Of a stretch of DNA of 27,083 nt, positions 1-19,838 are shown in pieces. The stretch spans positions 1 through 27,083 of IMG/VR virus record IMGVR_UViG_3300009164_000298. The stretch is one strand, 5' to 3'. Under the pieces are notes generated by a model. That model was not told where the DNA came from, did no database searches, and saw nothing but the letters and a program-made list of their open reading frames with translations. The DNA is from a virus. The position numbers and the translations under genes were made by a program. Numbering within the stretch: the stretch's first letter is position 1; each line of letters starts with the position of its first letter.

Positions 1-53
1 CGGGCTTGTTCCAGCTCAGACATTTCTTCCCAAGATTTGAATTCGTTTGACAT
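1..53 (-). CDS. Partial CDS, N-terminus of unknown small phage protein
   Basis: An ATG at position 53 opens a frame that stays open to the left edge of the window, so only the first 17 residues (MSNEFKSWEEMSELEQA) are visible. An AAGGA ribosome binding site lies about 7 bases upstream of the ATG, and a perfect-consensus sigma70 promoter (86-114) puts the transcript start about 26 bases upstream. The visible part is hydrophilic and acidic. Too little is present to assign a function; existence of the gene rests on the promoter, the ribosome binding site and the open frame. Confidence 0.6.
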   Translation of the reverse strand, partial: MSNEFKSWEEMSELEQA

Positions 54-85
54 TTTGTTTCCTTTTCTTTACTGTCTAAGATTCT

Positions 86-114
86 ATTATATACCCAAAT
101 CCATTTATTGTCAA
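86..114 (-). promoter_or_regulatory. Early sigma70 promoter, perfect consensus
   Basis: Read on the minus strand, TTGACA (109-114) and TATAAT (86-91) are separated by exactly 17 bases, a perfect match to the sigma70 consensus. The predicted start is near position 79, giving a leader of about 26 bases before the ATG at 53. The -35 side lies inside the end of the 111-347 gene. CCCAAA precedes the -35 and TTTGGG follows in the spacer, as in the promoter at 378-406. Confidence 0.9.
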
Positions 115-347
115 GTTTTGGGCTTCTCAGCACCGACGATCCCCCAATGATCTCCGTAATCAGTGACAAAAATCTTACGACCAAAAACTGTCACAAAACC
201 ATACTCACCGTCTTGGTAAACGTTGACTGGGTCTGGGATAATAGTCACATTGCGGAATACTTCACAGTAATCCCAACGCCTAGTAGGAAGTGTATTTTTG
301 AAATATTTATAATTATCACTACCTGAAACAAAAAGTTTTACCTTCAT
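111..347 (-). CDS. Small phage protein of unknown function (78 aa)
   Basis: I do not recognise this 78-residue protein. It has alternating aromatic and charged residues (segments such as YGFVTVFGRKIFVTDYGDHWG) that suggest a small beta-rich fold, with no membrane segment or signal peptide. The ATG at 347 is preceded by AAAGGAG at good spacing and by its own consensus promoter at 378-406. It sits among three consecutive small genes each with a private early promoter. That arrangement is typical of T4-type early accessory genes acting on the host, but the role here is inference. Confidence 0.75.
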   Translation of the reverse strand: MKVKLFVSGSDNYKYFKNTLPTRRWDYCEVFRNVTIIPDPVNVYQDGEYGFVTVFGRKIFVTDYGDHWGIVGAEKPKT

Positions 348-377
348 GACTAGCTCCTTTAATCAATCAATACAAGT

Positions 378-406
378 ATTATATACCCAAATCTATTTAT
401 TGTCAA
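378..406 (-). promoter_or_regulatory. Early sigma70 promoter, perfect consensus
   Basis: On the minus strand TTGACA (401-406), a 17-base spacer and TATAAT (378-383). The predicted start is near 371, 24 bases before the ATG at 347. Nearly the whole promoter repeats that at 86-114, and its leader (TTGATT...AAAGGAGCT) repeats that of the promoter at 734-762. Confidence 0.9.
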
Positions 407-417
407 GTTTGGGTAAT

Positions 418-434
418 GTAATACTTAGTATTAC
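418..434 (-). terminator. 8-bp perfect inverted repeat at gene end
   Basis: GTAATACT and AGTATTAC form a perfect 8-bp inverted repeat around one central base. It overlaps the stop codon of the 431-703 gene and lies just before the promoter at 378-406. The order gene end, dyad, early promoter, next gene matches the promoter/stem-loop cassettes described in T4-type phages. The dyad may act as a weak terminator, an RNA end or a protein-binding site; it has no clear T tract. Confidence 0.5.
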
Positions 435-703
435 CTTTTGTCACAGTATTCAAACAGAATCCACTTAGCACGATTCAGTGCTTGGCGAACATCTTCGATG
501 ACCATAAAATCATATGATCCGCCGTTGTCATAAGCAATCATTTCCTGACAATCACTCATCAGGCTAGCTGCCATCATAGCAGGACCGCTATGACGAAAAG
601 TAATACTTTGTTCTACCGCCTCTTTCATCGCGGCTTCGGTGACACCGTACATACGAATCTCACGTTTTTGAACATCGGACAGTTGGTCATAAATTGCGGT
701 CAT
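431..703 (-). CDS. Small phage protein of unknown function (90 aa)
   Basis: This 90-residue protein looks mainly helical, with a short Gly-rich turn (DNGGSYDFM) near residue 65. No domain is recognised. The ATG at 703 follows AAAGGAGCTTGCA, a strong ribosome binding site, and the gene has its own early promoter at 734-762 with a leader of about 24 bases. It is the second of three small genes with near-identical upstream regions. The private promoter suggests early expression; function is unknown. Confidence 0.8.
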   Translation of the reverse strand: MTAIYDQLSDVQKREIRMYGVTEAAMKEAVEQSITFRHSGPAMMAASLMSDCQEMIAYDNGGSYDFMVIEDVRQALNRAKWILFEYCDKR

Positions 704-733
704 TGCAAGCTCCTTTAATTAATCAATACACGT

Positions 734-762
734 AGTATAGCAGAGTATCCATTTATTGTCAA
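734..762 (-). promoter_or_regulatory. Early sigma70 promoter
   Basis: On the minus strand TTGACA (757-762), 17-base spacer, TATACT (734-739), one mismatch from consensus. The predicted start near 727 gives a 24-base leader to the ATG at 703. The ACCCAAA block upstream and the ATAAATGGAT start of the spacer are shared with the promoters at 86-114 and 378-406. Confidence 0.88.
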
Positions 763-788
763 ATTTTGGGTAAGATTTTTTAAGAACT

Positions 789-803
789 AAAAGTATTACT
801 TTT
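789..803 (-). repeat. AAAAGTAATACTTTT dyad at gene end
   Basis: A 15-base palindrome with 7-bp arms overlaps the stop codon of the 796-1368 gene and lies upstream of the promoter at 734-762. It shares the GTAATACT core with the dyad at 418-434 and the stem-loop at 11962-11986. It may be a weak terminator or part of a promoter/stem-loop cassette. Confidence 0.4.
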
Positions 804-1368
804 TGATGTACCAGATTGATCCGCTTGATGGTAATATGATATCAGAATTATGAATGTTGGCAAATTCACGTACTGCTTGCACGACACTGGGCATCCAGTA
901 TGCAAATGTATGTCCTGACAAAACAGAATTTTTGCCGAGTAGATTCCAAGCATAACTTAATTGCTTGTGAATTTTTTGTGTACCGTTGATTGTATCAGTA
1001 TCCCAATGTATCCAACTTACATTTTCTATTATAGGGAAGTCTTCTGGGAATAGACCTTGTATACCTATAACATTGTTAAATTTGTCTAGTATCTCTGCTT
1101 GAAAGATATCTTCTACACCGTTGCTGTCAAACTCAGGTCCATCATAGTCATTGATTCCATCCCATACTATAGGAGGTTCAGTAACGTACCATGGGTCAAT
1201 AGCATATATCATGTTAGTCTTGCATAATGATGCAATGACCTGTGTTGTTCTACCTGCAAATGGACCTATTTCGATGATATTAGAATTAGGTTCAGCCATA
1301 GAACACAATCGCTCTATGGCTGAGACTTCGTTACTATGTAACCATCCAGGAATATCTTTCCTAAACAT
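796..1368 (-). CDS. Class I SAM-dependent methyltransferase-like protein
   Basis: This 190-residue protein has a Rossmann methyltransferase motif I near residues 31-42 (NIIEIGPFAGRT) and an acidic motif II (AIDPW), where the Asp would bind the S-adenosylmethionine ribose. A WIHWDTD segment near the middle matches the later core of the fold. It resembles the methyltransferase-24/TylF-CmcI group, which act on small molecules or sugars. No DNA-methyltransferase catalytic motif (DPPY or PC) is seen, so DNA methylation is not supported. It follows the 1376-1636 gene by 7 bases, so the two are probably cotranscribed from the promoter at 1692-1720. The substrate is unknown. Confidence 0.65.
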   Translation of the reverse strand: MFRKDIPGWLHSNEVSAIERLCSMAEPNSNIIEIGPFAGRTTQVIASLCKTNMIYAIDPWYVTEPPIVWDGINDYDGPEFDSNGVEDIFQAEILDKFNNVIGIQGLFPEDFPIIENVSWIHWDTDTINGTQKIHKQLSYAWNLLGKNSVLSGHTFAYWMPSVVQAVREFANIHNSDIILPSSGSIWYIKK

Positions 1369-1375
1369 TTACAAT

Positions 1376-1636
1376 TTACTTTTTAGTTGATGTGCCTTGA
1401 TTTACAAAACTGTACATCTTTTCAGCAGTTTCCAAAATCTTGTCTAGACCTGGATGCTCGGGCATCTTAACTGTGCTAACAATTTGATTAGTCTTTGGAT
1501 CACGTTCTGCTGTCATTTCCCAACCTGAAAATTTGACATGGAAGTCATCACTAATTATATCCTTAGCCATTCCTAGAATGTCTGTACGAATCTCGTAGCC
1601 GTTTTTGTTGAATTTTACTTCTGGTAAATTTGACAT
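1376..1636 (-). CDS. Conserved T4-type phage protein of unknown function (86 aa)
   Basis: The sequence pattern (NGYEIRTDILGMAKDI, then GWEMTAERDPKT, then ILETAEKMYSFVN) is one I associate with a small protein common in T4-like aquatic phages, of unknown role. It looks soluble, with a helix, a beta hairpin and a C-terminal helix. The ATG at 1636 follows AAAGGAGAAGATT, a strong ribosome binding site, and the promoter at 1692-1720 gives a leader of about 49 bases. It heads a two-gene unit with the methyltransferase-like gene. The family recollection is from memory and would need a search. Confidence 0.75.
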   Translation of the reverse strand: MSNLPEVKFNKNGYEIRTDILGMAKDIISDDFHVKFSGWEMTAERDPKTNQIVSTVKMPEHPGLDKILETAEKMYSFVNQGTSTKK

Positions 1637-1691
1637 AATCTTCTCCTTTAATGTGTGTATGTCTGTTTGTGTTCCCTATGAACACGATTGA

Positions 1692-1720
1692 AGTATAACA
1701 CTATTATGCTATACAATCAA
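1692..1720 (-). promoter_or_regulatory. Sigma70-type promoter
   Basis: On the minus strand TTGATT (1715-1720), 17-base spacer, TATACT (1692-1697). The -35 overlaps the stop codon of the hydrolase gene upstream. It would drive the 1376-1636 and 796-1368 genes. Imperfect dyad halves (GATTG...TATA and TATA...CAATC) flank the spacer. Confidence 0.7.
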
Positions 1721-2298
1721 TTCTTTTGGGTGTTCTTAACGCGGTCTTTGATAATATCAATTACCTTTTCACTAAGAACTACCTCATAATGGTTATAATC
1801 AATTTCAATTAATTCCATATCCTCATGATGTTTCTGACTAGCAATAGTTACAACACCATCATTAGGCTCGACCATAAAAGGACTTTGTCCTTTTACAGTT
1901 ACTACATTAGTCCATGGATGCTGTATCTTAATACGATTTGCTTGTTTCATTGCCCAACTAGCAGGACCAATATCTTTCATCAATCTACTGAATGGTAGAA
2001 AATACTTAGCATAGTCAGCCACTTCAGCACCGCCGTAAGGAGTGCTTAATGTAACTGCACCCATTGTTTGTTTAGGTAATGCGTTAGCTAAATGGATAGC
2101 ATATATTCCACCTAAACTATGACCAATAAAAAACATATTGTTGACTGACGCTAATTGCTCGGTCATAGTTTTTAAATTGTTCTCAAAACCATTTCTACTA
2201 TCGTAGTTAACCACAATATCATTACCACCAATGTGTTCACGAATATGATTAAAACTTTCACCAGTAGCACTGGCTCCATGGATATATACTAGCGTCAT
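1717..2298 (-). CDS. Alpha/beta hydrolase (lipase/esterase-like)
   Basis: This 193-residue protein has the alpha/beta-hydrolase hallmarks. An N-terminal strand leads into an oxyanion-type YIHGASATGES near residues 5-15. The nucleophile elbow GHSLGG lies near residues 59-64, a possible acid Asp is in EPNDGVV, and a candidate catalytic His is in YNHYEV near the C-terminus. These fit a PGAP1/lipase-like esterase. The ATG at 2298 has no clear ribosome binding site; an AAATAAATA box lies just upstream. It follows a phasin-like gene and a 51-residue gene. A role in cleaving host lipid, polyester or cell-envelope esters is possible but not shown. No signal peptide is visible. Confidence 0.8.
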   Translation of the reverse strand: MTLVYIHGASATGESFNHIREHIGGNDIVVNYDSRNGFENNLKTMTEQLASVNNMFFIGHSLGGIYAIHLANALPKQTMGAVTLSTPYGGAEVADYAKYFLPFSRLMKDIGPASWAMKQANRIKIQHPWTNVVTVKGQSPFMVEPNDGVVTIASQKHHEDMELIEIDYNHYEVVLSEKVIDIIKDRVKNTQKN

Positions 2299-2318
2299 AA
2301 CTTTTATTTATTTGGATG

Positions 2319-2474
2319 TTAATAATAGGAAATTCGTCTGTGAAATTCAGCAATTAAACGTTCAACGTCAGCCTCATTCTGTGGATTGCGACTGACGATG
2401 TATGCTTCTAATCTGCTTGCATAACTTTCACTAAATTTACTAAAGCATCTCTCAATTTGATTGAGGATCCACAT
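2319..2474 (-). CDS. Short helical protein (51 aa), unknown function
   Basis: A 51-residue frame begins at an ATG at 2474, four bases after the stop of the 2478-2729 gene, and ends at TAA (2319-2321). The protein is strongly helical, with the pattern ...LEAYIVSRNPQNEADVERLI followed by AEFHRRISYY. It fills most of the gap between its neighbours in the same direction, which supports it as a real gene. The ribosome binding site is weak, so translation probably depends on coupling to the upstream gene. It looks like the short helical proteins found in some proteobacteria and phages; function unknown. Confidence 0.68.
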   Translation of the reverse strand: MWILNQIERCFSKFSESYASRLEAYIVSRNPQNEADVERLIAEFHRRISYY

Positions 2475-2477
2475 AAA

Positions 2478-2729
2478 TTACTTAGTTTTCTTACTTGCGG
2501 CTTTTGTAGTTGTAAAAGAAGGTGTGAATGTTTCTGCAACTTCTTTAGCAAACTCTTTATTTGTCAACAAAGAATAGAAACCAGTCATGTTATCAAATAA
2601 TGCTTTGGTGTATGCTGTTTCTGCATCTACAAATTTGTTGATTGTGTCAGCAAGTGTTTCGTGTTTTACGAAGGTGCTAACGATTTGCTTTTTGCCTGTT
2701 TGAACGGTGTCAATAGCGGTATTAAACAT
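2478..2729 (-). CDS. Phasin-like small helical protein (83 aa)
   Basis: This 83-residue protein is almost wholly amphipathic helix with a short Thr/Ala/Lys tail (TTTKAASKKTK). The pattern of a helix rich in TLADTINKFVDAETAYTK followed by Phe/Leu-rich segments resembles phasins, which coat polyhydroxyalkanoate granules, but the match is by eye only. The ATG at 2729 follows ACAGGAGAATATT, a strong ribosome binding site. A late-promoter-like CATAAATA lies 62 bases upstream (2792-2799), so late expression and a structural role are an alternative. It is followed by a 51-residue gene and a lipase-like hydrolase. Confidence 0.7.
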   Translation of the reverse strand: MFNTAIDTVQTGKKQIVSTFVKHETLADTINKFVDAETAYTKALFDNMTGFYSLLTNKEFAKEVAETFTPSFTTTKAASKKTK

Positions 2730-2791
2730 AATATTCTCCTGTGTTAGTGTGTTTAAGGCGAGTTTTTATACAGAACTCATAACTGCACTAA

Positions 2792-2799
2792 TATTTATG
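2792..2799 (-). promoter_or_regulatory. T4-type late promoter-like box CATAAATA
   Basis: On the minus strand CATAAATA differs by one base from the T4 late promoter consensus TATAAATA. It lies 62 bases upstream of the ATG at 2729, close to the 60-base distance of the same box upstream of folE (19899-19906). No -35 element is needed at late promoters. Confidence 0.5.
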
Positions 2800-2980
2800 C
2801 CTGACTATGTTTCTCTCTAAACTTTTTCATTGCTAGATGCCTAGCAAGAAACAATCTAAATTTTACATGATCCGATAAGTCATCAGTATCATCTTCATGG
2901 TGTACAATCTCTGGACGACTATAACCACGATGTGCTACTATATCCCTCCCTGATGACTCATAGTCATTTTCTTCTAAATC
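2795..2980 (-). other. Coding-like open frame without a start codon
   Basis: On the minus strand a frame runs without stops from 3046 down to TAA at 2795-2797. From about 2980 it encodes a protein-like sequence of some 62 residues, with an acidic HHEDDTDDLSDH stretch followed by a basic helix (VKFRLFLARHLAMKKFREKH). No ATG, GTG or TTG lies before this block in frame. It begins exactly where the Lys-rich gene (2979-3197) stops, in its +1 frame. A run of six A residues (2988-2993) six bases before that stop is a plausible slip site or a sequencing indel. If joined, the product would be about 132 residues. Confidence 0.4.
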
Positions 2981-3197
2981 ACTTGGATTTTTTACTGGGA
3001 CTTTTGGTAGCGTCTTTCTTGACCTTTTTGTCTTTCTTCTTCTTGGCTAATAACATTTTGTTCTTTGCTTTATCTTCAGGAGATACATTAGGTACTGGTG
3101 GACGAACATCTTGTGTTGTTGCTGGTGCAGGTTTTGGATCTGCCGCAAAACTTGATGCCATCATAACTGATGCGATTAATGCTAATACTAATTTCAT
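2979..3197 (-). CDS. Small secreted Lys-rich protein (72 aa)
   Basis: Residues 1-19 form a typical Sec signal peptide (MKLVLALIASVMMASSFAA, cleavage likely after the AxA-like end), followed by a Pro-rich linker (DPKPAPATTQ) and a very Lys-rich tail (AKKKKDKKVKKDATKSPSKK). No lipobox Cys is seen, so it should be periplasmic or secreted rather than a lipoprotein. The ATG at 3197 follows AAAGGATATAAA. A TATAAATC late-promoter-like box lies 19 bases upstream. The tail may continue by frameshift into the startless frame at 2795-2980. Function unknown; the basic tail could bind DNA, RNA or envelope polymers. Confidence 0.75.
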   Translation of the reverse strand: MKLVLALIASVMMASSFAADPKPAPATTQDVRPPVPNVSPEDKAKNKMLLAKKKKDKKVKKDATKSPSKKSK

Positions 3198-3216
3198 TTT
3201 ATATCCTTTGTTAAAT

Positions 3217-3224
3217 GATTTATA
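3217..3224 (-). promoter_or_regulatory. Possible late promoter box TATAAATC
   Basis: On the minus strand TATAAATC matches seven of eight positions of the T4 late consensus and lies 19 bases before the ATG at 3197, leaving a short leader containing the AAAGGA ribosome binding site. Weak evidence, because the motif is short and the region is AT-rich. Confidence 0.3.
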
Positions 3225-3256
3225 TACAACGTCTTTGGTAGTATATTCGTTGACAA

Positions 3257-3433
3257 CTACCCGCCTCTACCCGTACGTCTTACTACACTCGAACCGCCAA
3301 AGCCTTTTGTATTTGCTTTTGGTCCTTGCTTCTTGGGTGCTTTGCCTAACCCAGGGTGAAGTTCATTGTTATTCTTTTTGGCTTCGTTTGCCATATTGAC
3401 AAACGGGTTCTTGCTTTTCTTTTCTTCGGTCAT
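3257..3433 (-). CDS. Small basic phage protein (58 aa)
   Basis: A 58-residue frame starts at an ATG at 3433 that overlaps the TGA of the upstream gene as ATGA, with AAGGA about 9 bases before it. The product is basic and probably disordered, rich in Lys, Asn and Gly, ending in a Gly/Arg segment (GFGGSSVVRRTGRGG). The overlap, the ribosome binding site and the filling of the gap between neighbours support a real gene. The Arg/Gly tail could bind nucleic acid, but no family is recognised. Confidence 0.7.
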   Translation of the reverse strand: MTEEKKSKNPFVNMANEAKKNNNELHPGLGKAPKKQGPKANTKGFGGSSVVRRTGRGG

Positions 3434-3828
3434 CTTGATATCCTTACTGATTTTAGGTAACTATCTAAGTCTCCGTACAAACTAAGCATCATAGCTATCT
3501 TGCTATCATACAGTCTAATGTATGGTTTGTTTTTCTTACCTTCAACTTTATTTACACTTATATAGTAGGGGCAACGCATTTTCTTCCCTAGGTCAATCAT
3601 ATAACCATGATATGTATCTTCTGCTTTGGGTGTAAAGTCATATTGATAAAATTCAATTTGTGCTATGCGAAAAGCAGTATCACCTGCTGGACTTAATCTT
3701 AGCACATCACTACTAGAACGAGTAAACCACCAAGTACGTAACGCATGTTCTTTTGATTCTTCAAACCCTGAAGGCAATTGTTGTAGTACAATTTCGGTTA
3801 TAGTTTCTTTATATGAGGGCTTAGTCAT
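3430..3828 (-). CDS. Conserved phage protein of unknown function (132 aa)
   Basis: A soluble 132-residue protein with mixed alpha and beta character. Near residue 80 it has LGKKMRCPYYI, and near residue 100 NKPYIRLYDSKIAMMLSLYG. I associate this pattern with an uncharacterised protein of T4-like aquatic phages. Its ATG at 3828 overlaps the end of the 3821-4114 gene by eight bases, and its stop overlaps the next start, so it is translationally coupled on both sides. No catalytic motif is evident. Confidence 0.75.
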   Translation of the reverse strand: MTKPSYKETITEIVLQQLPSGFEESKEHALRTWWFTRSSSDVLRLSPAGDTAFRIAQIEFYQYDFTPKAEDTYHGYMIDLGKKMRCPYYISVNKVEGKKNKPYIRLYDSKIAMMLSLYGDLDSYLKSVRISR

Positions 3829-4114
3829 CAGGATAAACTTTGGTACCGTTGTTCATAAACACGACACTGAATTTATCTGATTTAAATTGTGCGTTTAGCT
3901 TACGACACAGGTTTCTTGCATGTCCAGGATTACTGAAACTAGTCTTTTTATATTTAGGAACGCTTTCGCTATCGTAGGCGTGCTGGCTTTTTAAGTTAAT
4001 CGGTTGCCCGTCATAAAACACAGCCCATATACCGGCTGCCTCTACAATTTGGTCAGATTTATAAGTTACCTTATCTACTGATTCTAAAATAACTGTGGGT
4101 TGTGTTCTGGACAT
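3821..4114 (-). CDS. Unknown phage protein (97 aa)
   Basis: This 97-residue protein has a WAVFYDGQPINLKSQ segment, then a Ser/Lys-rich middle and a FSNPGHARNLCRKLN helix. The layout resembles small phage proteins with a beta-hairpin followed by a helix. The ATG at 4114 lies directly after the stop of the 4115-4318 gene, with AGGCGGAAAG upstream as ribosome binding site. It belongs to a tight cluster running from 5239 to 2979. Function unknown. Confidence 0.72.
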   Translation of the reverse strand: MSRTQPTVILESVDKVTYKSDQIVEAAGIWAVFYDGQPINLKSQHAYDSESVPKYKKTSFSNPGHARNLCRKLNAQFKSDKFSVVFMNNGTKVYPDD

Positions 4115-5287: not shown

Positions 5288-5557
5288 TTAATTTTTCCAC
5301 ATCTCATACATGAATTTCAACTTGTCATCCCATACCTCTATTACTAACAATTCAGATACCCACATGAAGTCCCATCCTGTACCACGGTCACCCATATTTC
5401 TGCGACACCATTTGATATGGTCGCCTGGATAATCTTTGCGATTACGATAATCAATTTTATAAATTGTTTTATCACCTCTTGTAGTTACCTCACTACGGTC
5501 AATGATGATACGACTTGCTGGTGCAAGTCTTATATGTGTGTTTGTTGTTATTGCCAT
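5288..5557 (-). CDS. Divergent last member of the LRW small-protein family (89 aa)
   Basis: I chose the ATG at 5557 because it overlaps the upstream TAA as TAATG and has AAGG eight bases before it; an ATG at 5581 would add eight residues. The protein has the family's central W-C-x4-G element (KWCRRNMGDRG) and a C-terminal acid-plus-helix segment (DDKLKFMYEMWKN), but it lacks the terminal LRW. It is the last gene of the coupled block that begins after the RNase H-like gene. No known domain; function unknown. Confidence 0.7.
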   Translation of the reverse strand: MAITTNTHIRLAPASRIIIDRSEVTTRGDKTIYKIDYRNRKDYPGDHIKWCRRNMGDRGTGWDFMWVSELLVIEVWDDKLKFMYEMWKN

Positions 5558-5772
5558 TATTGGTACCTTAATGTGAACCACGTTGCAAGTGATTCTTTGT
5601 AAAATGTAAAGATAGTATAGCAGGGTTTTGTTGGTCCCGAAAATCTATCATTGATACTAGGATAATATGCAAAGTCAAAGTCAATTCCCTGACCATATCC
5701 TTTGCTACGCAATTCACTAACTATTTCCATAGCTTGTCCGGGTAACATCTTATCCATTCTAACTTTTGTCAT
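5557..5772 (-). CDS. LRW-family small protein, ends TLRYQ (71 aa)
   Basis: A 71-residue member of the tandem family. It has an N-terminal helix (residues 9-24), a middle strand region with aromatic residues, and the C-terminal TFYKESLATWFTLRYQ, matching the family's F-x-LRW ending. The W-C-x4-G element is missing. The ATG at 5772 overlaps the TGA of its upstream neighbour (ATGA). Its own last codons (TTA AGG TAC CAA) supply AAGG for the following gene. Function unknown. Confidence 0.75.
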   Translation of the reverse strand: MTKVRMDKMLPGQAMEIVSELRSKGYGQGIDFDFAYYPSINDRFSGPTKPCYTIFTFYKESLATWFTLRYQ

Positions 5773-6017
5773 TGTGGAAACATTATTAAAAAGAAACTAG
5801 CATATCGTTCATCTTCTAATGTAAGAGTCCAATGTTTACTTTTTGAATTCTGAGTCCAATGTTTATTAACTACTCCCGGATCCCATGTATGTTTTGCTAT
5901 CCAGCCCTGTCCACCGATACTGTTATGAATGTAATGCAATCTAGGCCCAATATTCTTTGCTAGCCATTGTTCTTCTCTTGCCGTTAATCTATTTTTAAGT
6001 TTAATAGTTATTGCCAT
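5769..6017 (-). CDS. LRW-family small protein, variant ending MFPQ (82 aa)
   Basis: The start is uncertain. ATG at 6017 (MAITIKL...) fits the family, while a GTG at 6032 gives five more residues; neither has a clear upstream ribosome binding site. The protein has QWLAKNIGP, matching the W-x5-G element, and a Trp-rich middle. The C-terminus, LEDERYASFFLIMFPQ, keeps the acid-helix pattern but has lost LRW, and with it the GAGG that would serve the next gene. The next start still overlaps its stop as ATGA. Function unknown. Confidence 0.7.
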   Translation of the reverse strand: MAITIKLKNRLTAREEQWLAKNIGPRLHYIHNSIGGQGWIAKHTWDPGVVNKHWTQNSKSKHWTLTLEDERYASFFLIMFPQ

Positions 6018-6262
6018 CTCAATTGAAACCACATTAAATGTTTTTCTTCAGTAAAACTAAATCGATCCTGCCTAACTGTCCAAACGCCAGCGGTGAAGCC
6101 AATGCTCCATTTGGGACCAAGTGTGGCTCGGCACCATTCTTCAGCTTTGAAAGTTGTAAATCTATCAAGGCGGGTTTCGTATGGTAGGGCAGTAGTTATC
6201 ACACGGTCAACATAGTCATACCATGTTTCATCATTGGGTTTGTATTTAATAAATGGCATCAT
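6008..6262 (-). CDS. LRW-family small protein (84 aa)
   Basis: Start chosen at the ATG at 6262 because it overlaps the upstream TGA as ATGA; ATG at 6268 adds two residues. The family elements are clear: a helix ending EEWCRATLGP, a strand pair (GVWTVRQDRFSF) and the C-terminal EEKHLMWFQLRWQ. Here the Arg codon is AGA, so the GAGG ribosome binding site is degraded to GAGA. Function unknown; probably a small alpha/beta domain. Confidence 0.75.
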   Translation of the reverse strand: MMPFIKYKPNDETWYDYVDRVITTALPYETRLDRFTTFKAEEWCRATLGPKWSIGFTAGVWTVRQDRFSFTEEKHLMWFQLRWQ

Positions 6263-6447
6263 TCCCATCGCATCCTAAACCAAAGAGCATCTTTACTATC
6301 ACTAAAATGATAATCCACTTTTGATCGACTTGTATCTTCATTGATATGCCAAGTTGAACTACGATAACTTTTACAATGTTCTCTAGCCCACTGAGATGGA
6401 GTTTCTTTATCATGGGATCTAAGTGGTAGTGTTATAGTATGTCTCAT
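6259..6447 (-). CDS. LRW-family small protein (62 aa)
   Basis: ATG at 6447 is chosen over a GTG at 6453. It overlaps the upstream TGA (ATGA) and sits five bases after GAGG, which is formed by the Leu-Arg codons of the preceding gene. The 62-residue protein has SQWAREHC in the helix position and ends SDSKDALWFRMRWE. It is one of the shortest members. Function unknown. Confidence 0.75.
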   Translation of the reverse strand: MRHTITLPLRSHDKETPSQWAREHCKSYRSSTWHINEDTSRSKVDYHFSDSKDALWFRMRWE

Positions 6448-6662
6448 TGCCACCTCAACTTAAACCACATACGATGTTTCTCATCTTTGACACTCCAAAC
6501 ATCCATACCCGCCATTGTGCCTTCTAATGCTACAAGTATACTCTTTTCCCAGCACCAATCGTATATGTTTGCTCTTAATGTTGATGGCAACATAGTGTCA
6601 GTAGACTCAACCATACGAACATAACCCTTGTCAGTCATTTTCCATTCTTCTAAATTAATCAT
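6444..6662 (-). CDS. LRW-family small protein (72 aa)
   Basis: The ATG at 6662 overlaps the upstream TGA (ATGA) and follows GAGGTGGCA; a GTG at 6668 is less likely. The 72-residue protein has the element YDWCWEKS without the usual Gly, then a strand DVWSVKD, and ends EKHRMWFKLRWQ. Its final codons TTG AGG TGG CAA form the GAGG for the next gene. Function unknown. Confidence 0.78.
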   Translation of the reverse strand: MINLEEWKMTDKGYVRMVESTDTMLPSTLRANIYDWCWEKSILVALEGTMAGMDVWSVKDEKHRMWFKLRWQ

Positions 6663-6898
6663 TGCCACCTCAACACAAATAAAATATACTCTTGTTCACA
6701 CAAGAACTTGAATCTAAATGCATCACCTTCTCCGCCTTCTGCAAAGATTAACGGATACTTGCGTTCTTCACGCAACCAGTGAAGTGCTTCAAAATAAGTT
6801 TGATAGTCAGGTACGGTAGCATAAATCCATTTGTTGCGCCTACAATGAGGCTTGTGACGGCAAAAGTCTTCCTGTGTTAGCGTGGTAGTTTCCGTCAT
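6659..6898 (-). CDS. LRW-family small protein (79 aa)
   Basis: The ATG at 6898 overlaps the upstream TGA and follows GAGGTGGTC, so I prefer it to the ATG at 6925, which adds nine residues. The N-terminal part has a Cys/His pair (FCRHKPHCRRNKW) that might bind a metal. The middle helix ends ALHWLREE. The C-terminus, EQEYILFVLRWQ, matches the family. The last codons TTG AGG TGG CAA carry the next ribosome binding site. Function unknown. Confidence 0.78.
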   Translation of the reverse strand: MTETTTLTQEDFCRHKPHCRRNKWIYATVPDYQTYFEALHWLREERKYPLIFAEGGEGDAFRFKFLCEQEYILFVLRWQ

Positions 6899-7200
6899 GA
6901 CCACCTCAGCATGAACCACTCGCAATCTGCCTTGTCCCTAAACAAAAACTTAGCATTGTTGACATACCATCTATCACCCGGAGTCCATACTCCGGGTGCA
7001 CCGGGTGTGCCACTGGGTCCAAATATGTTAACACACCAAGCAATCATTTCATTCCATTCAAACGATGATATTATGGGGTCAATTTGATGATAAGGCATGC
7101 CATATACATGTGCTGTTCCACCATAATTTATACTACGCATTGCCGCCCATCCACCATTAGATCCATATAACTTATTGGTCATTTGCCTTTTCTTAATCAT
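6895..7200 (-). CDS. LRW-family small protein (101 aa), longest member
   Basis: ATG at 7200 overlaps the upstream TGA (ATGA); ATG at 7206 adds two residues. The N-terminal 35 residues are extra (Gly/Tyr/His-rich). The core follows: a helix ending MIAWCVNIFGP, a Gly/Pro-rich loop, a strand (KFLFRDK) and the ending ADCEWFMLRWS. Its last codons CTG AGG TGG TCA carry the GAGG for the next gene. Function unknown. Confidence 0.78.
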   Translation of the reverse strand: MIKKRQMTNKLYGSNGGWAAMRSINYGGTAHVYGMPYHQIDPIISSFEWNEMIAWCVNIFGPSGTPGAPGVWTPGDRWYVNNAKFLFRDKADCEWFMLRWS

Positions 7201-7433
7201 TGCCATTTCAATGCAAAGAATATTGCATCACGTTCTTTTTCAAAATTAAAAATAACTTTTTCAAAAAATGAGTTATCATCAACACTATAGGCTCCTATAC
7301 ATTTCTTTTTACACCAACTAATTCCTCTTTCAATCTTAACATCAAATTCAGAGGTGTAGTAATCAGGATGAAATTCTAGTGTTATTTTATATTTTAATTT
7401 GCGGGCAATACTACGTCTTTGCTTACTGTTCAT
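7197..7433 (-). CDS. LRW-family small protein (78 aa)
   Basis: The ATG at 7433 overlaps the stop of the glutamine amidotransferase-like gene as ATGA. The protein has a basic N-terminus (NSKQRRSIARKLK), then the helix element ISWCKKKCIG, and ends KERDAIFFALKWQ. Lys replaces Arg in the terminal motif (codon AAA), so the ribosome binding site offered to the next gene is weaker. Function unknown. Confidence 0.75.
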   Translation of the reverse strand: MNSKQRRSIARKLKYKITLEFHPDYYTSEFDVKIERGISWCKKKCIGAYSVDDNSFFEKVIFNFEKERDAIFFALKWQ

Positions 7434-8074
7434 CTACTCATTAATTCATTTGTAAAGTTAAGTAAAAGTTTGTGATGTACACCGTCATGGTAATGTGCTT
7501 TCATCCAGCTATAGCTTTCATACCAGAATGGTTGACTTTCTGGGTGACACCCAATCAATCCTAATCTATTTTGAAATATAGCCATTGCATCTCCATTACT
7601 ATAAGTAGCAACTGTCTCAAACTTTGTGTCATCGCCCACTAACGCACATCCATCATACCAAAAAAGTTTCATTGGTTCGCCTCTCCAAGTGATAGGCATG
7701 TTTTTTGCATGTGGTCTACGTGTGTCAGTTCCCGGACGGTTTAAGTATTGTACAGCATCTACGTCTTTAAGTAAAGAGAAATAGTGCAAACCTGCCCAAT
7801 ATGCACCCATACATATTCCCAGATATCTACCACCATTATTAATAAAATCAATCACTCGTTCACCATTGTGTTGGAAGAGTTTTTTGTAACTGTCGCTGTC
7901 TCCAAACCCACCAGGAACGGCTATCATATCAACTCCGTTAAAGAAGTCTTTTTCTAGTCTGTTCTTGGAAAAAAGTTTAAAGTTGTACTGAGAATCCAAA
8001 GAACTGATTATTCCATTGGAACTCTGTACTGAGCATTTTGGGTCTGCTACGAAAAGGGCGATTGTTGGCTTCAT
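7430..8074 (-). CDS. Class I glutamine amidotransferase-like protein (BPL_N type)
   Basis: This 214-residue protein has a complete class I amidotransferase triad. Cys88 lies in GICMGAY, and His177 and Glu179 in CHPES. A PGGFGD loop near residues 54-59 and GGRYLGICMG place it with the biotin-protein-ligase N-terminal-like (BPL_N) branch rather than with the CTP synthase or GMP synthase types. It lacks a synthetase partner domain. Some phages fuse an amidotransferase to QueC to amidate preQ0 in DNA; a similar ammonia-supplying role here is inference. The ATG at 8074 has no strong ribosome binding site, and a 9-bp hairpin (8079-8104) lies in its leader. It sits inside the LRW array. Confidence 0.78.
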   Translation of the reverse strand: MKPTIALFVADPKCSVQSSNGIISSLDSQYNFKLFSKNRLEKDFFNGVDMIAVPGGFGDSDSYKKLFQHNGERVIDFINNGGRYLGICMGAYWAGLHYFSLLKDVDAVQYLNRPGTDTRRPHAKNMPITWRGEPMKLFWYDGCALVGDDTKFETVATYSNGDAMAIFQNRLGLIGCHPESQPFWYESYSWMKAHYHDGVHHKLLLNFTNELMSR

Positions 8075-8078
8075 TAGA

Positions 8079-8104
8079 GTAATATTTAGTTGTTGAAATA
8101 TTAC
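8079..8104 (-). promoter_or_regulatory. 9-bp perfect hairpin before the amidotransferase start
   Basis: GTAATATTT and AAATATTAC pair perfectly over 9 bp around an 8-base loop, five bases upstream of the ATG at 8074. The stem is AT-rich. It could block or present the start of the amidotransferase gene, or be a protein site. It also resembles the GTAATACT dyads at 418-434 and 789-803. Confidence 0.45.
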
Positions 8105-8108
8105 ACTA

Positions 8109-8333
8109 TTATAACCACCTTAAGCTAAAAAAGATAGCGTCTTTCTCATCTTGGAAATAAAAATCCATATAATCTTCCGTACAAACTGTACTGAATCTAT
8201 GCCCAGGCAACCCGAATTTCTCAAGGGCCCAGGCACAGGTCTCATTCCATTTCTCGTTTTCATCGTCCCACAGATTCTGTGTACTCCAGGGTAGTCGGAC
8301 TTTGTACTCGTTCTTGTGAGTTTTCTCAACCAT
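8109..8333 (-). CDS. LRW-family small protein (74 aa)
   Basis: The 74-residue protein has WNETCAWALEKFG in the helix position, strands through MDFYFQD, and the ending EKDAIFFSLRWL. It is one of the clearest members. The AGG TGG codons are kept at its 3' end although the next start (8074) is too far away for that ribosome binding site, which shows the LRW residues are also kept for protein reasons. The ATG at 8333 overlaps the end of the 8326-8565 gene. Function unknown. Confidence 0.75.
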   Translation of the reverse strand: MVEKTHKNEYKVRLPWSTQNLWDDENEKWNETCAWALEKFGLPGHRFSTVCTEDYMDFYFQDEKDAIFFSLRWL

Positions 8334-8565
8334 TAATACGAAACTTCTTTAGATAGTCTTTAGCAACATCTAAGTTTTCAGCATCATACACTGGTTTCTC
8401 TGGTTCGTCAGGTGTCGTAAAATGACACAGTGTCATATCTAACCCAAACTTACTAGCATAATAATCAACAAGACTGTCAATCAATGCACCAAGCATTTTT
8501 TCATCTAAACAATCTAGCCCTTTAATATTTAATTGGTATTGGTTGAAATCTTCATCATCATTCAT
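8326..8565 (-). CDS. Small acidic phage protein (79 aa)
   Basis: This 79-residue acidic protein opens with NDDEDFNQYQLNIKGLDCLD and has a helix MLGALIDSLVDYYASKFG, then a TTPDEPEKPVYDAEN segment and a helix. It is not a member of the LRW family. ATG at 8565 has GAGG nine bases upstream, contributed by the end of the 8567-8920 gene. Function unknown. Confidence 0.72.
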   Translation of the reverse strand: MNDDEDFNQYQLNIKGLDCLDEKMLGALIDSLVDYYASKFGLDMTLCHFTTPDEPEKPVYDAENLDVAKDYLKKFRING

Positions 8566-8566
8566 T

Positions 8567-8920
8567 TTAATCTACCTCATTTTCGTATGGAACATCTACC
8601 CAGCCAAGTTTCAAAAAATCTTCTTCAATCTCCTCAGTTATTACACCTTCGGGTGCATATCCTTCTCCTTCATCTCTAATACCAGAACAGTACCAATCCA
8701 AATAATCACCTTCTTCGAGAATTTTTGCTACAAGTCCACCTGCATAACGCCAAGTACAAGCCCAAGTTTCTTCTTTTAGAATAGGCCAAATCTCACGCTT
8801 TTGCCATTCTGTGTTACACAAGGCTGCATATATGTTTTGTGCATAGGATTTATTAACTTTTGCTTTTGAAACAATCCAATCACAATGCAACAAATCATGT
8901 TCTAAATTGGGTTTATTCAT
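8567..8920 (-). CDS. Conserved phage protein (117 aa), unknown function
   Basis: The pattern ALCNTEWQKREIWPILKEETW, then WRYAGGLVAKI, then YLDWYCSGI and a Glu-rich end with LGW is one I associate with an uncharacterised protein common in aquatic phages. ATG at 8920 is chosen because it overlaps the upstream TGA as ATGA and follows GAGGTTTGC; ATG at 8941 would add seven residues. It lies between two LRW-family genes and is probably cotranslated with them. Confidence 0.8.
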   Translation of the reverse strand: MNKPNLEHDLLHCDWIVSKAKVNKSYAQNIYAALCNTEWQKREIWPILKEETWACTWRYAGGLVAKILEEGDYLDWYCSGIRDEGEGYAPEGVITEEIEEDFLKLGWVDVPYENEVD

Positions 8921-9105
8921 GCAAACCTCAGTAAGAACCATGCCTTCTTTGCATCTGACTGAAAAGAAAATGTTTTACTATATCTATTGTAAAATGCACC
9001 ATATTCTTTTGTTAACCATTCGTTGATTGACAAATCAGATTCCCAATGAATGTTGTCATAATAGTAATCAACAATTTTTGGATACAATGAAAGAGTGTCA
9101 GACAT
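8917..9105 (-). CDS. LRW-family small protein, ends LRFA (62 aa)
   Basis: First member of the array in transcription order. It has INEWLTKEYGAF in the W-x5-G position and ends FQSDAKKAWFLLRFA. The last codons CTG AGG TTT GCA TGA put GAGG five bases before the next ATG. Phe replaces Trp, yet the nucleotide spacing is the same. ATG at 9105 overlaps the end of the RNase H-like gene and has GAGG about nine bases upstream. Confidence 0.75.
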   Translation of the reverse strand: MSDTLSLYPKIVDYYYDNIHWESDLSINEWLTKEYGAFYNRYSKTFSFQSDAKKAWFLLRFA

Positions 9106-11922: not shown

Positions 11923-11951
11923 AGTATAGCACCGATTGGGTTTACCGTCAA
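11923..11951 (-). promoter_or_regulatory. Sigma70 promoter for the ParB-like gene
   Basis: On the minus strand TTGACG (11946-11951), 17-base spacer, TATACT (11923-11928). The start near 11916 gives a leader of about 26 bases with GGAG before the ATG at 11890. AAGTATTACATT lies just upstream of the -35, as at the promoter at 378-406. Confidence 0.82.
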
Positions 11952-11961
11952 ACAAAAATGT

Positions 11962-11986
11962 AATACTTTTGTCTAAGAATAGTATT
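11962..11986 (-). terminator. Weak stem-loop followed by T run
   Basis: On the minus strand AATACT and AGTATT form a 6-bp stem with a 13-base loop, followed by ACATTTTTG. It lies after the HNH gene stop (12001) and before the promoter at 11923-11951. The order fits a terminator plus promoter cassette. The stem has only one G-C pair, so termination would be weak. Confidence 0.4.
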
Positions 11987-16265: not shown

Positions 16266-16531
16266 TTTTGTAGTTCCCAAATAATGTGTTCGTCATAACG
16301 ATGCCAGTGATATTCATATACCACATCAACACTCTGCCCATAATACTCAGCAATGCCTTGATAGGCAAATTGCAACCAAATAATTTTTTTAGTAAGCATA
16401 CAACGATGTGGCAACCATGCAAAATCTTTTGTCCATGTTGCTATTTTGTAAAAGTGCCATTGACTTTCAGATAGTGACCTAGGATTATATCCTAATTTTA
16501 CTCTATAGTTATTGTAATTACTACCGAACAT
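16262..16531 (-). CDS. Small aromatic-rich phage protein (89 aa)
   Basis: ATG at 16531 is preferred to 16543: it overlaps the QueE stop (TGATG) and has GGGGA six bases before it. The protein is rich in Trp, Tyr and His (for example TWTKDFAWLPHRC and EYHWHRYDEH) and ends in IIWELQK. No transmembrane segment. Function unknown. It directly follows queE and may be cotranslated with it. Confidence 0.7.
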   Translation of the reverse strand: MFGSNYNNYRVKLGYNPRSLSESQWHFYKIATWTKDFAWLPHRCMLTKKIIWLQFAYQGIAEYYGQSVDVVYEYHWHRYDEHIIWELQK

Positions 16532-17379
16532 CAAGTTCCCCATTCATTTTTGAACAATGGAACTTGAAGTCTGTCACTATATCGCCAGCCTTTTTTCATT
16601 GCTAATTCTGCAACTGTTCTATTATTAAGATTATAAAGTTCGGGGACACCACCGCAAGGCATAAGATAAACAGGACCTTTAAAGCCACGTTTACTATATT
16701 CATTTACTGCTTGTTCTGCTTCTTCTGCATCTTCTTTAGTTGCTATCACAAACTTCAAATAAGTAAAGCCAGTATTATAATATTGTTGAACAACATCGGA
16801 GCAAATAGCATCTTCCCAACTCTCACCACTGATACTTAGTTTAGGACTTACACTAAATGTCACACAATGCAAGAAACGATGTTTCTTCCATTCATTTAAG
16901 AAAGTAACTAGTTCTGGTTCTAACAATTGTGTACCATTTGTTTCAAATGTTAATTCTTGTAGACCACGCATATTATCATGTGATAACAGTTCAGGATAAC
17001 TACGTTGCCAACCTAGTAGCGGTTCACCACCTGTGATAACCAAATGCTCATCTTTCCAACGATTATGAGGAAGTAAATCGGTAATAGTATCAACAATAGT
17101 ATTGGTGTCAAGAACAGGACTGAGATGTTTGAAACGTGGATCCCAACTCGCATAGCTATCACATCCAGTAGATACAAGTGGTAATGATTTATAAAATTTA
17201 AAACTTTCTGCATTTTCTGCAATAACATTTCGCTCAACACTTTTTTCTCCTTTAGGCATTCCAAAGCCATCGCATTTAAAGTTACAACCAAATGTGCGTA
17301 AGAACACACTTGGTACACCCATGTAACGACCTTCACCTTGCACACTATAAAACAATTCTGATATTTTTAATTTACTCAT
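16531..17379 (-). CDS. queE: 7-carboxy-7-deazaguanine synthase-like QueE
   Basis: A 282-residue radical SAM protein with the QueE layout. SVQGEGRYMGVPSVFLR is at residues 12-28, followed by the cluster motif GCNFKC (Cys32, Cys36) and a third cluster Cys at GCDSYASWD (Cys73), equal to the usual CDTxYA. A GGEPLL SAM-binding motif lies near residue 115 and an FETNGT strand follows. QueE converts 6-carboxytetrahydropterin to 7-carboxy-7-deazaguanine. About 34 extra residues separate Cys36 from Cys73, where classic enzymes have a short spacer. ATG at 17379 overlaps the upstream gene as ATGA. It lies two genes after queD in one run. Confidence 0.88.
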   Translation of the reverse strand: MSKLKISELFYSVQGEGRYMGVPSVFLRTFGCNFKCDGFGMPKGEKSVERNVIAENAESFKFYKSLPLVSTGCDSYASWDPRFKHLSPVLDTNTIVDTITDLLPHNRWKDEHLVITGGEPLLGWQRSYPELLSHDNMRGLQELTFETNGTQLLEPELVTFLNEWKKHRFLHCVTFSVSPKLSISGESWEDAICSDVVQQYYNTGFTYLKFVIATKEDAEEAEQAVNEYSKRGFKGPVYLMPCGGVPELYNLNNRTVAELAMKKGWRYSDRLQVPLFKNEWGT

Positions 17380-17574: not shown

Positions 17575-17673
17575 TCAACACCTATGTTTTGAATGCCATA
17601 TGCCTAGTATTCGTATACGAGAGAATTGACCAAAGCAGTTTGGGCAATAGAGTCTTGAAGTAGGCCATTTCAT
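17575..17673 (-). CDS. 32-residue zinc-finger-like mini-protein
   Basis: A tiny frame starts at ATG 17673, overlapping the QueD stop as ATGA with GAGG six bases upstream, and ends at TGA (17575-17577), one base before the next ATG. The product (MKWPTSRLYCPNCFGQFSRI followed by RILGIWHSKHRC) has CPNC and, 15 residues on, HxxHxC, a plausible four-ligand zinc site. The coupling geometry equals that of the genes around it, which supports translation. It may be an accessory to the QueD/QueE pathway or a nucleic-acid-binding peptide. Confidence 0.62.
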   Translation of the reverse strand: MKWPTSRLYCPNCFGQFSRIRILGIWHSKHRC

Positions 17674-18233
17674 ACAAACAAATCCTCATTCCATTCACGA
17701 TGACCTTCACGAAATGCCATGTTAGCCTGTGTTTCTCTAACTTCAACACGATAGCACCATAGACGTTCTGCTTCACCGTTACCCCACATATCTGGAATAT
17801 ACACTCCATTGACATATTTGTAAAGCATATCGGCTAAACTCTCACAACCAATTCTTGGGAGAATAGTTAACTTAGCTAATTTCTTTTCTTGCAACATTTT
17901 GAATGTTTCAAGTTCTGGGTCATCTTGTGCTACTAATAGTGTATGGTCAAATTGATCCTCAAGAATCTTCTTCAACTCTTTTAGTCCACCATAGTCAGCC
18001 GCCCAGTTACGAACATCTAAATCGTCAGTACCAAAATAAAATTTCATACTGAAACTATAACCATGAATCATATTGCAATGACTGTCTGCACGCCATTGAC
18101 GATATGCACACGGGAATGCATCGTGATATTCCTTAGTACTTGTAAATTTATATTGTCTTGCTGAATTCCAACGATGTGTTGTAAAGTTTTTTTCTAAGTG
18201 ACGAATTAAGTCACCGGTTGATGAGTTTGCCAT
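17670..18233 (-). CDS. queD: QueD/6-carboxytetrahydropterin synthase-like (variant site)
   Basis: A 187-residue T-fold protein related to QueD and 6-pyruvoyltetrahydropterin synthase. Visible elements are PCAYRQWRADSHC (residues 41-53), IHGYSF (56-61), DYGGLKELKKILEDQFDHT (80-98), GCESLA (129-134) and VRETQ near 165. The usual zinc ligands are H in AAH and both H of HGH; here the first is Tyr44 and the third Tyr59, leaving His57 with His52 nearby. Cys53 is in a position comparable to the catalytic Cys. The known reaction is 7,8-dihydroneopterin triphosphate to 6-carboxytetrahydropterin. It has its own promoter and AGGAG site. Confidence 0.8.
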   Translation of the reverse strand: MANSSTGDLIRHLEKNFTTHRWNSARQYKFTSTKEYHDAFPCAYRQWRADSHCNMIHGYSFSMKFYFGTDDLDVRNWAADYGGLKELKKILEDQFDHTLLVAQDDPELETFKMLQEKKLAKLTILPRIGCESLADMLYKYVNGVYIPDMWGNGEAERLWCYRVEVRETQANMAFREGHREWNEDLFV

Positions 18234-18970: not shown

Positions 18971-19164
18971 TCTTTAACTCCGAAATGTTGTTTAATCAAA
19001 TCCGAAGCGAGAAATGGTTCCGAAGCGTTAGCTATCTCGGCACACTTAAGAACAATTAACTCAGCAAACTTTGTTGTATCAAAGTGTAAATGGCCATCTA
19101 CTAGTACGCCGTCTACACGATGACTCCAGCATCGTTGTTCTAATGCTTTAATCTTTTCATTCAT
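18967..19164 (-). CDS. Conserved small phage protein (65 aa)
   Basis: The pattern MNEKIKALEQRC...FDTTKFAELIVLKCAEI is that of a very common small phage protein found in many tailed phages, of unknown function. Its start overlaps the folE stop as ATGA and its end overlaps the next start the same way. It is mostly helical with two Cys. Confidence 0.78.
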   Translation of the reverse strand: MNEKIKALEQRCWSHRVDGVLVDGHLHFDTTKFAELIVLKCAEIANASEPFLASDLIKQHFGVKE

Positions 19165-19838
19165 TTCTGTCTCGCAATTTGATAGAACTCTGCACGTGCC
19201 GCCGGGTCAGATTTAAACCCACCACCTAAGCGTGTGGTTACTGTACTACTACCGGTATCCTCAACTCCCCTGGCCGCAACACAATAATGTTTTGCGTCAA
19301 TCATAACTGCAACATCTTCTGTATCCAGAATGAACTGCAATGTGTGAAAGATTTGTTCAGTTAATCGTTCTTGAATTTGCGGACGCTTAGAAAAATATTC
19401 TACAATGCGATTGATTTTACTTAAGCCAAGTACTCTGTCTTTGGGAACATATGCAACAGTAGCAAGCCCATCAATAACAACAAAGTGATGTTCACAATTA
19501 CTTTGTACGTTAACATTACGTTCACATACCATTTCATTATATTTCATTTTGTTGTCAACTGTTGTACATTTAGGGAATGCTTCATAATCAAGTCCCCAAA
19601 AGATTTCATTCACATACATCTTGGCAACACGCTTAGGCGTATCCATTAAGCTATCATCAGATAGGTCCAAGCCTAACGTTTCCATGATACCTTTGAAATG
19701 ACTTTCAATCAATTCAATCTTGCCTACACGGGACATATGACCTGTATAAGTGGTTGGAGTTTCAACACCCATTTTAACTAAGTGTTCATGTACTTGTAAT
19801 CCTAATTCAGGATCTGTTTTTGTCTTATTGTAACTCAT
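19161..19838 (-). CDS. folE: GTP cyclohydrolase I (FolE)
   Basis: A 225-residue protein closely resembling bacterial FolE. It has Cys115-Glu-His-His118 and His184-Tyr-Cys186, the zinc ligands and catalytic His of the family, LGLSKINRIVEYF, the substrate loop QERLTEQI, and a C-terminal TTRLGGGFKSD. It converts GTP to 7,8-dihydroneopterin triphosphate, the first step shared by folate and 7-deazaguanine synthesis. With queD, queE and dpdA nearby the 7-deazaguanine route is the likely use. The ATG follows CGGAGGGTTATCAA, a strong ribosome binding site, and a late-promoter-like box lies 60 bases upstream. Confidence 0.93.
   Translation of the reverse strand: MSYNKTKTDPELGLQVHEHLVKMGVETPTTYTGHMSRVGKIELIESHFKGIMETLGLDLSDDSLMDTPKRVAKMYVNEIFWGLDYEAFPKCTTVDNKMKYNEMVCERNVNVQSNCEHHFVVIDGLATVAYVPKDRVLGLSKINRIVEYFSKRPQIQERLTEQIFHTLQFILDTEDVAVMIDAKHYCVAARGVEDTGSSTVTTRLGGGFKSDPAARAEFYQIARQK

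Follow-up and report, generated by a model that had tools for sequence, protein, structure and literature searches.

Repeated promoter-leader units and variable small-gene arrays in a lineage of uncultured large phages

Modular shuffling of genes at repeated promoters has been described for a few T4-type phages. Promoter-early stem-loops (PeSLs) of T4-type phages such as RB49 and phi1 were reportedly described by Arbiol et al. in 2010 and by Comeau et al. in 2014; in RB49 and phi1 the genes neighbouring PeSLs are said to be exchanged, and in phi1 the PeSLs are said to be excised as mini-circles. The existence and role of PeSLs in T4-type phages are dealt with in PMC4503421, and two further papers treat PeSLs (PMC4177764) and hyperplastic regions (PMC3797505). 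Early promoters of phage T4, as characterized in PMC2988021, are of the form UP/-35/TGn/-10, with excellent -35 and -10 boxes and extra conserved bases outside the sigma70 elements, and they compete strongly for the host polymerase.

The stretch of DNA analysed here (the window) is a virus record of 27,083 bases, a fragment contig whose genes we called with a simple in-house script. The minus strand carries 52 of the 54 genes called in this way. The nearest phage records to its DNA polymerase are Sinorhizobium phage Phosso (49%), Agrobacterium phage Atu_ph07 (47%) and Cronobacter phage GAP32 (43.5%), which are cultured jumbo phages with this polymerase family in common. This gp43-type DNA polymerase is related to those of jumbo members of the T4 superfamily. 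A megablast search of a phage collection with window bases 1-4000 gave no match.

We identified three promoters near the left end of the window (762-734, 406-378 and 114-86 on the minus strand), which precede gene A, gene B and the start of gene C, respectively (Table 1). An earlier note on this DNA had reported repeated units of a gene end, an AGTAnTAC dyad, a promoter, a leader and a new gene. These repeated units exist, and the observation is confirmed in part: the order recurs twice on the minus strand with an offset of 356, and the leaders TTGATT(G/A)ATTAAAGGAGCT match at both units as described. A 70-base unit at 413-344 is matched at 54 of 70 bases at 769 and at 45 of 70 at 121, while the next best place in the window reaches 35 of 70. 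The promoters had also been called near-identical, which holds for the cores at 406 and 114 (28 of 29 bases agree) and not for the copy at 762, which agrees with the core at 406 in 20 of 29 bases and with the lineage consensus in 21 of 29. A third unit, at 114-86, lacks a dyad; its -35 box includes the gene B stop codon TGA (113-111). The supposed variant at 11923-11986 does combine an AGTATTACA with a promoter of sigma70-like type. Its core, however, deviates at 11 of 29 bases and it has another leader, and we therefore place it outside the repeat.

Table 1. Features at the left end of the window, and places of a structured element in related contigs
Feature	Position	Strand	Remarks
Gene C, 5' end only (window ends)	1..53	-	Homologues in relatives about 125 aa; family matches phrog_21968 (unknown function)
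Leader of partial gene C, AGAATCTTAGACAGT...AAAGGA class	54..85	-	Leader comparison
Promoter core 1, TTGACA-17-TATAAT	86..114	-	12/12 sigma70; 0/29 mismatches to lineage consensus
Gene B, 78 aa	111..347	-	Family of 33 called genes across window and loci
Leader of gene B, ACTTGTATTGATTGATTAAAGGAG class	348..377	-	Leader comparison
Promoter core 2	378..406	-	12/12 sigma70; 1/29 mismatches to lineage consensus
AT-rich dyad GTAATACTAAGTATTAC, overlaps gene A stop codon (433-431)	418..434	-	No terminator by folding
Gene A, 90 aa	431..703	-	Family of 36 called genes across window and loci
Leader of gene A, TTGATTAATTAAAGGAGCT class	704..733	-	Leader comparison with relatives
Promoter core 3, TATACT	734..762	-	11/12 sigma70; 8/29 mismatches to lineage consensus
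Stop-codon dyad AAAAAGTAATACTTTT	763..804	-	Compared with junction in relatives
Gene D, 190 aa	796..1368	-	Between chassis gene f8 and array
Chassis gene f8, fixed left flank of variable array	1376..1636	-	Gene chains of relatives
Structured element, places in relatives	L004:7196-7325, L006:7908-8037, L205:11946-12075, L208:2197-2326, L211:6988-7117, L216:6420-6549, others		

Core 3 has the same 5' half and a different 3' half of the spacer, and it is identical to the cores of three relatives (L023, L030 and L058) at the corresponding junction. At seven mismatches the reversed control also gives matches. As the core by itself is insufficient at eight mismatches, we assign core 3 to the repeat on its leader, its place and the identical copies in these relatives.

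The 29-nucleotide core, TTGACAATAAATNGATTTGGGTATATAAT, is present in at least 119 stretches of viral contigs. These core-bearing stretches belong to our sample of relatives, to which another search contributed its best 80 of 312; since the locus set was partly collected by the core itself, the apparent conservation of the core is inflated. Eighteen of 20 long records carry 1 to 21 copies (three or fewer mismatches) and the reversed control gives none in any record; twelve of the 20 were fetched as core-bearing, and six of the eight reached via the DNA polymerase have the core. With up to six mismatches there are 553 copies in the window and 239 loci versus none for the reversed core, a count in which overlapping loci contribute more than once and from which cores with seven or more mismatches are left out, such as the gene A type of L023, L030 and L058; the window's own core of this type is the one exception and was counted. 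Conservation sets in abruptly at -5 from TTGACA and continues via the spacer and the leader to about +54 (400 contexts). In the spacer, 13 of 17 positions are conserved at 0.82 or more in this set, which was partly selected by the core. Such spacer conservation probably exceeds what promoter strength alone should require.

Core similarity is 0.790 within a contig versus 0.797 between contigs, and it is 0.828 for the same gene family between contigs. Homogenisation of cores within a contig is thus not seen, and the values fit a shared cassette pool rather than local copying. With three or fewer mismatches the core is absent from Phosso, Atu_ph07, GAP32, 121Q, K64-1, RB49 and T4. Neither the exact core nor a slightly looser pattern has a match in genome_contigs (84,980 prokaryote species), and in the lack of an exact match there we rejected a copied host promoter as the origin of the core. 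We also compared the promoter-leader with known phage DNA and rejected a homology there, as only chance matches came up (E about 6). Among literature titles and abstract openings, most subscription papers aside, we found no description of this element in this lineage.

The element resembles PeSLs in that a strong sigma70-type promoter is repeated between small genes of variable regions, with several near-identical copies per genome. It resembles T4 early promoters, as PMC2988021 presents them, in its excellent boxes and the further conserved bases outside them. Compared with that account of the T4 promoters, the lineage has a conserved spacer (ATAAATGGATTTGGGTA), a consensus without TG before the -10 box, and a conserved leader.

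Gene chains of the relatives consist of a fixed frame of outer genes with variable fillings. The window's site, f19-f11-(f205)-f8 followed by the array and f5, holds 23 distinct arrays in 35 contigs, and a second site between f9 and f23 holds 17 distinct arrays in 21 contigs; some of these arrays contain spurious or missed ORFs from script gene calling, and several contigs possibly represent the same phage in different samples. The window is not counted among the 35 contigs since its end falls inside the array. Fillings of the window's site in relatives include A-B-C-f16, A-B-C-C-f16 (L080), f95-B-f38-f244-B-f14 (L218) and others. Families 16, 17, 18 (A), 25 (B), 38, 60, 105, 109, 130 and 253 are found at both sites, and at the second site the order is A-B in L066 and B-A in L089. 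What comes after f8 and its promoter varies among contigs: L023, L030, L058, L080 and L098 have gene A there, L084 and L120 have a 111-aa gene, L020 and L038 have a lipoprotein-like gene, and still other genes are found elsewhere.

The genes that lie between the elements are exchanged among related phages, as with PeSLs. The suggestion in the earlier note that the three small genes are exchangeable modules agrees with these chains, in which the outer genes are kept and the array between them changes, and with the lower rate at which promoter-joined pairs keep their neighbour (below). The search it had proposed, for the cassette with different flanking genes in relatives, found the core ahead of 73 small-gene families. 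Conserved gene order with no reshuffling, which it had set against this idea, did not occur, although the window's close relatives do retain the order A-B-C.

We compared the conservation of the next gene at junctions with and without a promoter. The comparison covered small genes no more than 3 kb from a promoter; upstream genes were matched for identity, hits were reciprocal best hits per contig, and values are family means; junctions with a gap of more than 300 nt or with proteins of more than 220 aa were dropped. At 70-85% identity, promoter junctions conserve the next gene in 0.175 [0.07-0.29] of cases versus 0.448 [0.36-0.55] for non-promoter junctions. The corresponding values are 0.05 versus 0.24 at 30-50%, 0.11 versus 0.24 at 50-70%, 0.43 versus 0.66 at 85-95% and 0.53 versus 0.83 at 95-99.5%. 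The 95% intervals clearly separate only at 70-85%; they overlap at 50-70% and 85-95%, narrowly miss each other at 30-50% (0.144, 0.146) and just touch at 95-99.5% (0.737, 0.736). Without 14 paralogous families the effect remains (0.11 versus 0.39 at 70-85%). When the neighbour is allowed anywhere within three genes, the difference is smaller and the intervals overlap in every identity class.

These data bear on another account of the repeats, namely that they are ordinary, vertically inherited promoters with a lineage consensus and that gene order varies through fast turnover of small genes. Vertical inheritance would accommodate the A-B-C order of close relatives and a test of gene triples that found no promoter effect (below). 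It is disfavoured by the adjacency, breakpoint and array data: the same cassettes occur at two sites and in opposite orders, and promoter junctions keep their neighbour less often than neighbouring non-promoter small genes at matched divergence. We regard this account as very improbable.

The place of the joint was examined in the 287 of 398 distinct promoter contexts (91 contigs) for which both neighbours were called. The TGA of TTGACA is the stop codon of the preceding gene in 96 of them, and the promoter follows the stop codon after 0-5 nt in 107, 6-20 nt in 23 and 21-140 nt in 61. Similarity among copies ends at the upstream edge of the promoter. Where the downstream gene is the same and the upstream gene unrelated (193 pairs), identity upstream equals its baseline (both 0.27), while it is 0.91 in the core box (baseline 0.87) and 0.81 in the leader (baseline 0.61). 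Where the upstream gene is the same and the downstream gene unrelated (97 pairs), identity is 0.58 at -8 to -1 (baseline 0.41) and 0.69 in the leader. From these identities, the moving unit is mostly promoter, leader and gene, with the joint at or in the core. Different leader classes also occur on near-identical genes (the MSALVEYTL gene in L023 versus L030, and gene C in the window versus L118), and the joint is therefore not always upstream of the leader.

We consider it probable that the window holds shuffled promoter-leader-gene cassettes, joined by recombination in the core, at the left end of a hypervariable small-gene island. As far as sequence comparison can establish it, the promoter-leader is repeated throughout the lineage, the arrays vary between fixed flanks, and most comparisons put the joint at the promoter. 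A cassette begins with a strong host-type (sigma70) promoter, which is followed by a leader of about 25-30 nt that includes a ribosome-binding site and by a single short ORF; the stop codon of this ORF often falls at or inside the next promoter. Homologous recombination between near-identical cores would join cassettes from different genomes. A new gene would then be expressed at once from a promoter of its own, probably early, and read-through along the array would give overlapping transcripts. The early timing, the expression and the action of the core as a recombination handle are what we infer from this arrangement.

More tentatively, the cassettes may form a lineage-wide pool of one-gene units in uncultured jumbo phages, for which a near-fixed promoter-leader of about 60 bp could be both expression signal and homology handle. 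In the most compact joints TTGACA doubles as the -35 box of one cassette and, by its TGA, as the stop of the preceding gene, and the whole could be an integrase- and terminator-free analogue of a gene-cassette array that works by recombination.

The promoter could instead be a passenger. Small genes would then move in some different way (by illegitimate recombination, through crossovers in flanking core genes, or with homing endonucleases), each would bring a strong promoter of its own, and selection acting on promoter, leader and start site would keep the sequence alike. In triples with both outer genes retained, the middle gene has changed in 0.197 of cases with promoters on both sides (n=477) versus 0.212 with none (n=2428), and with a promoter on one side it is absent or replaced in 0.251 (n=490). 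We therefore rejected a simple cassette-indel model, as genes flanked by two promoters show no excess of single-gene change, a result that counts against the preferred reading and is in keeping with a passenger promoter. So is the finding that two cores within a contig are no more alike than across contigs, and a unit of promoter, leader and gene would look identical under this explanation. Against it are the conservation of the spacer, allowing for a set partly selected by the core, and the finding that the bases just upstream follow the upstream gene while the leader follows the downstream gene, which places the joint in or beside the core. On this balance a passenger promoter seems unlikely.

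The earlier note had further described the cassette as a composite of promoter and stem-loop, and this part is not supported in the form given: the window has no stem-loop of terminator quality, and for 203 of the 287 copies in relatives the preceding stop codon overlaps the promoter or ends no more than 5 nt before it, which leaves no space for one. As AT-rich palindromes overlapping stop codons the dyads are real: AGTANTACW has 11 matches at 9 places in the window versus 2.64 matches expected. Within the 45 nt upstream of the promoter, the dyad at 434-418 folds with -5.0 kcal/mol (z -0.5) and that at 803-789 with -1.6 kcal/mol (z -1.1; 30 shuffles each). Both window dyads lack a terminator-type GC stem plus T-run and fold no better than shuffles.

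In a classical PeSL, a terminator stem-loop would be combined with an early promoter, and the dyads would be working terminators. Across the relatives, 24 of 387 contexts contain an intrinsic terminator no more than 80 nt upstream, versus a mean of 1.8 in 10 shuffles, and about two thirds of the 24 are of the GCCCC..GGGGC type. In 77 contexts with a gap of at least 12 nt, the 45 nt upstream form more stable folds than their shuffles (mean z -1.7 and -1.9), whereas in 287 contexts with shorter or negative gaps they hardly do so (mean z -0.1 and -0.5). A larger hairpin element is found in this position in 13 contigs, and several f8 ends bear a terminator ahead of the promoter; the recurrent form there is the dyad AAAAAGTAATACTTTT, then a GC hairpin, a T-run and the promoter. 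These contexts agree with the classical composite. The shuffle-level folding of the window dyads, the 203 copies close to a stop codon, the lack of covariation between the upstream bases and the spacer, and a core without any fold (0 kcal/mol, versus -12.8 for an RB49 core) speak against it, and we judge it improbable. A stem-loop or terminator joined to the promoter is not what we find here, and the interpretation of mobile promoter/stem-loop cassettes with exchangeable genes thus appears to be supported only in part.

Four relatives (L023, L030, L058 and L080) carry an additional GC hairpin and T-run at the position of the window's stop-codon dyad. The window has the same dyad, promoter and leader as L023 but neither this hairpin nor the T-run, and gene D lies between f8 and the dyad. 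Loss of the hairpin in the window is the simpler reading because the hairpin is present in many relatives, and this dyad seems to be the remnant of a terminator junction. The preferred reading, of cassettes joined in the core, would have an ancestral terminator at this junction, as in the relatives, with gene D coming in and the terminator hairpin disappearing. Gene D has weak similarity to Methyltransf_24, under Pfam's cut-off, and a homologue is absent from the 239 loci (E up to 1e-3).

A stem-loop across the promoter was rejected as a family feature: stems of at least six pairs occur in 0.181 of 398 contexts versus 0.174 of shuffled ones, and the paired positions show no covariation, so such a stem is not general. 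Core 2 by itself has an imperfect palindrome across it (window 440-370, minus strand), which folds with -17.6 kcal/mol (z -3.5) and pairs TACCCAAA with the spacer TTTGGGTA and AAGTATTA with TAATACTT. This palindrome may be an operator of that single copy. Stop codons are also enriched for AGTANTAC: over the gene ends of 190 loci, the 6-nt bin overlapping the stop has 27 occurrences versus 3.8 expected.

Ten places in RB49 match TTGACA-17-TATA(A/C)T; at six of them the spacer is a palindrome of the GGGGAT..ATCCCC type (one GGGGGT), and three of these palindromic cores (121708, 122853 and 123266) sit 5, 9 and 13 nt after the preceding gene. The geometry is common to RB49 and the lineage, but the hairpin differs. 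The RB49 stem-loop is formed by the spacer of the promoter (the one core folded has -12.8 kcal/mol), whereas the lineage core is unfolded, its copies mostly lack a stem-loop, and its conserved part continues through the leader. Our verdict is that the lineage element works like the PeSL of T4-type phages, mostly without the stem-loop. We set it apart from PeSL membership as a variant, because the stem-loop is absent from the window and most copies. In GAP32 (JN882285.1) two copies of one 29-base promoter and a third, nearly identical one (11183, 11575 and 14725) lie within 3.6 kb, and phages of its type may possess their own set of promoter cassettes.

In relatives, we found a strongly structured intergenic element of 110-130 nt directly 5' of the cassette promoter (15 aligned sequences from 13 contigs; places in Table 1). 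Seven of eight folded sequences have z from -3.0 to -9.2, and the other (L047) has z -0.03. One class of ten sequences forms a 13-bp stem, an inner 4-bp stem and a 4-bp mini-hairpin, with compensatory change in two of 21 pairs and a covariation term of only -0.15 for the consensus structure; there is no consensus structure over all 15 aligned sequences. A covariance model built from the ten finds 11 places at E <0.001 in 90 sources, four of which are training sequences, and it has no match in the window. Rfam has no match overlapping the element at E up to 1 (six loci). We rejected a coding role, as one frame is partly protein-like and is interrupted in other sequences, with no consistent gene call. 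The element is a candidate non-coding RNA or hairpin site.

A called ORF of at least 30 aa lies downstream of the promoter in 384 of 406 distinct contexts; these genes fall into 73 families, of which 40 are singletons, with a median of 90 aa. Of ten cassette proteins compared with Pfam, eight are without a match at E 0.01, and the other two are an AAA-like protein under its Pfam cut-off and a cell-wall hydrolase. Seven of the ten have a PHROG match at E 0.01, mostly of unknown function, and part of the cassette pool is thus already known from other phages. For the proteins of genes A and B, neither Pfam nor PHROG nor the phage collection gave a match. Cassette genes may serve host takeover or counter-defence. 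Taken with the arrays, these genes indicate that modular shuffling at repeated promoters acts on a large scale in uncultured large phages, they mark two defined sites where many small genes of unknown function are exchanged, and the promoter core can be used as bait for collecting more of them.

Outside the array, the window has f205 (1717-2298), an alpha/beta-hydrolase-like gene adjoining f8 that some relatives have and others lack. At 5557-9105 there are about ten small overlapping minus-strand genes whose protein ends are alike (F..LRWQ and variants) and whose 3' ends form the repeat families D1, D2 and D5; three of the proteins tested have no PHROG match, and the run looks like a tandem paralogue array. 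A 492-aa protein (22789-24267), reminiscent of a DpdA-type transglycosylase, has no PHROG match at E 0.001 and a sub-threshold Pfam match only. The window also contains a set resembling the 7-deazaguanine pathway, with a QueE-like gene (16531-17379), a QueD-like gene (17670-18233) and a GTP cyclohydrolase gene (19161-19838).
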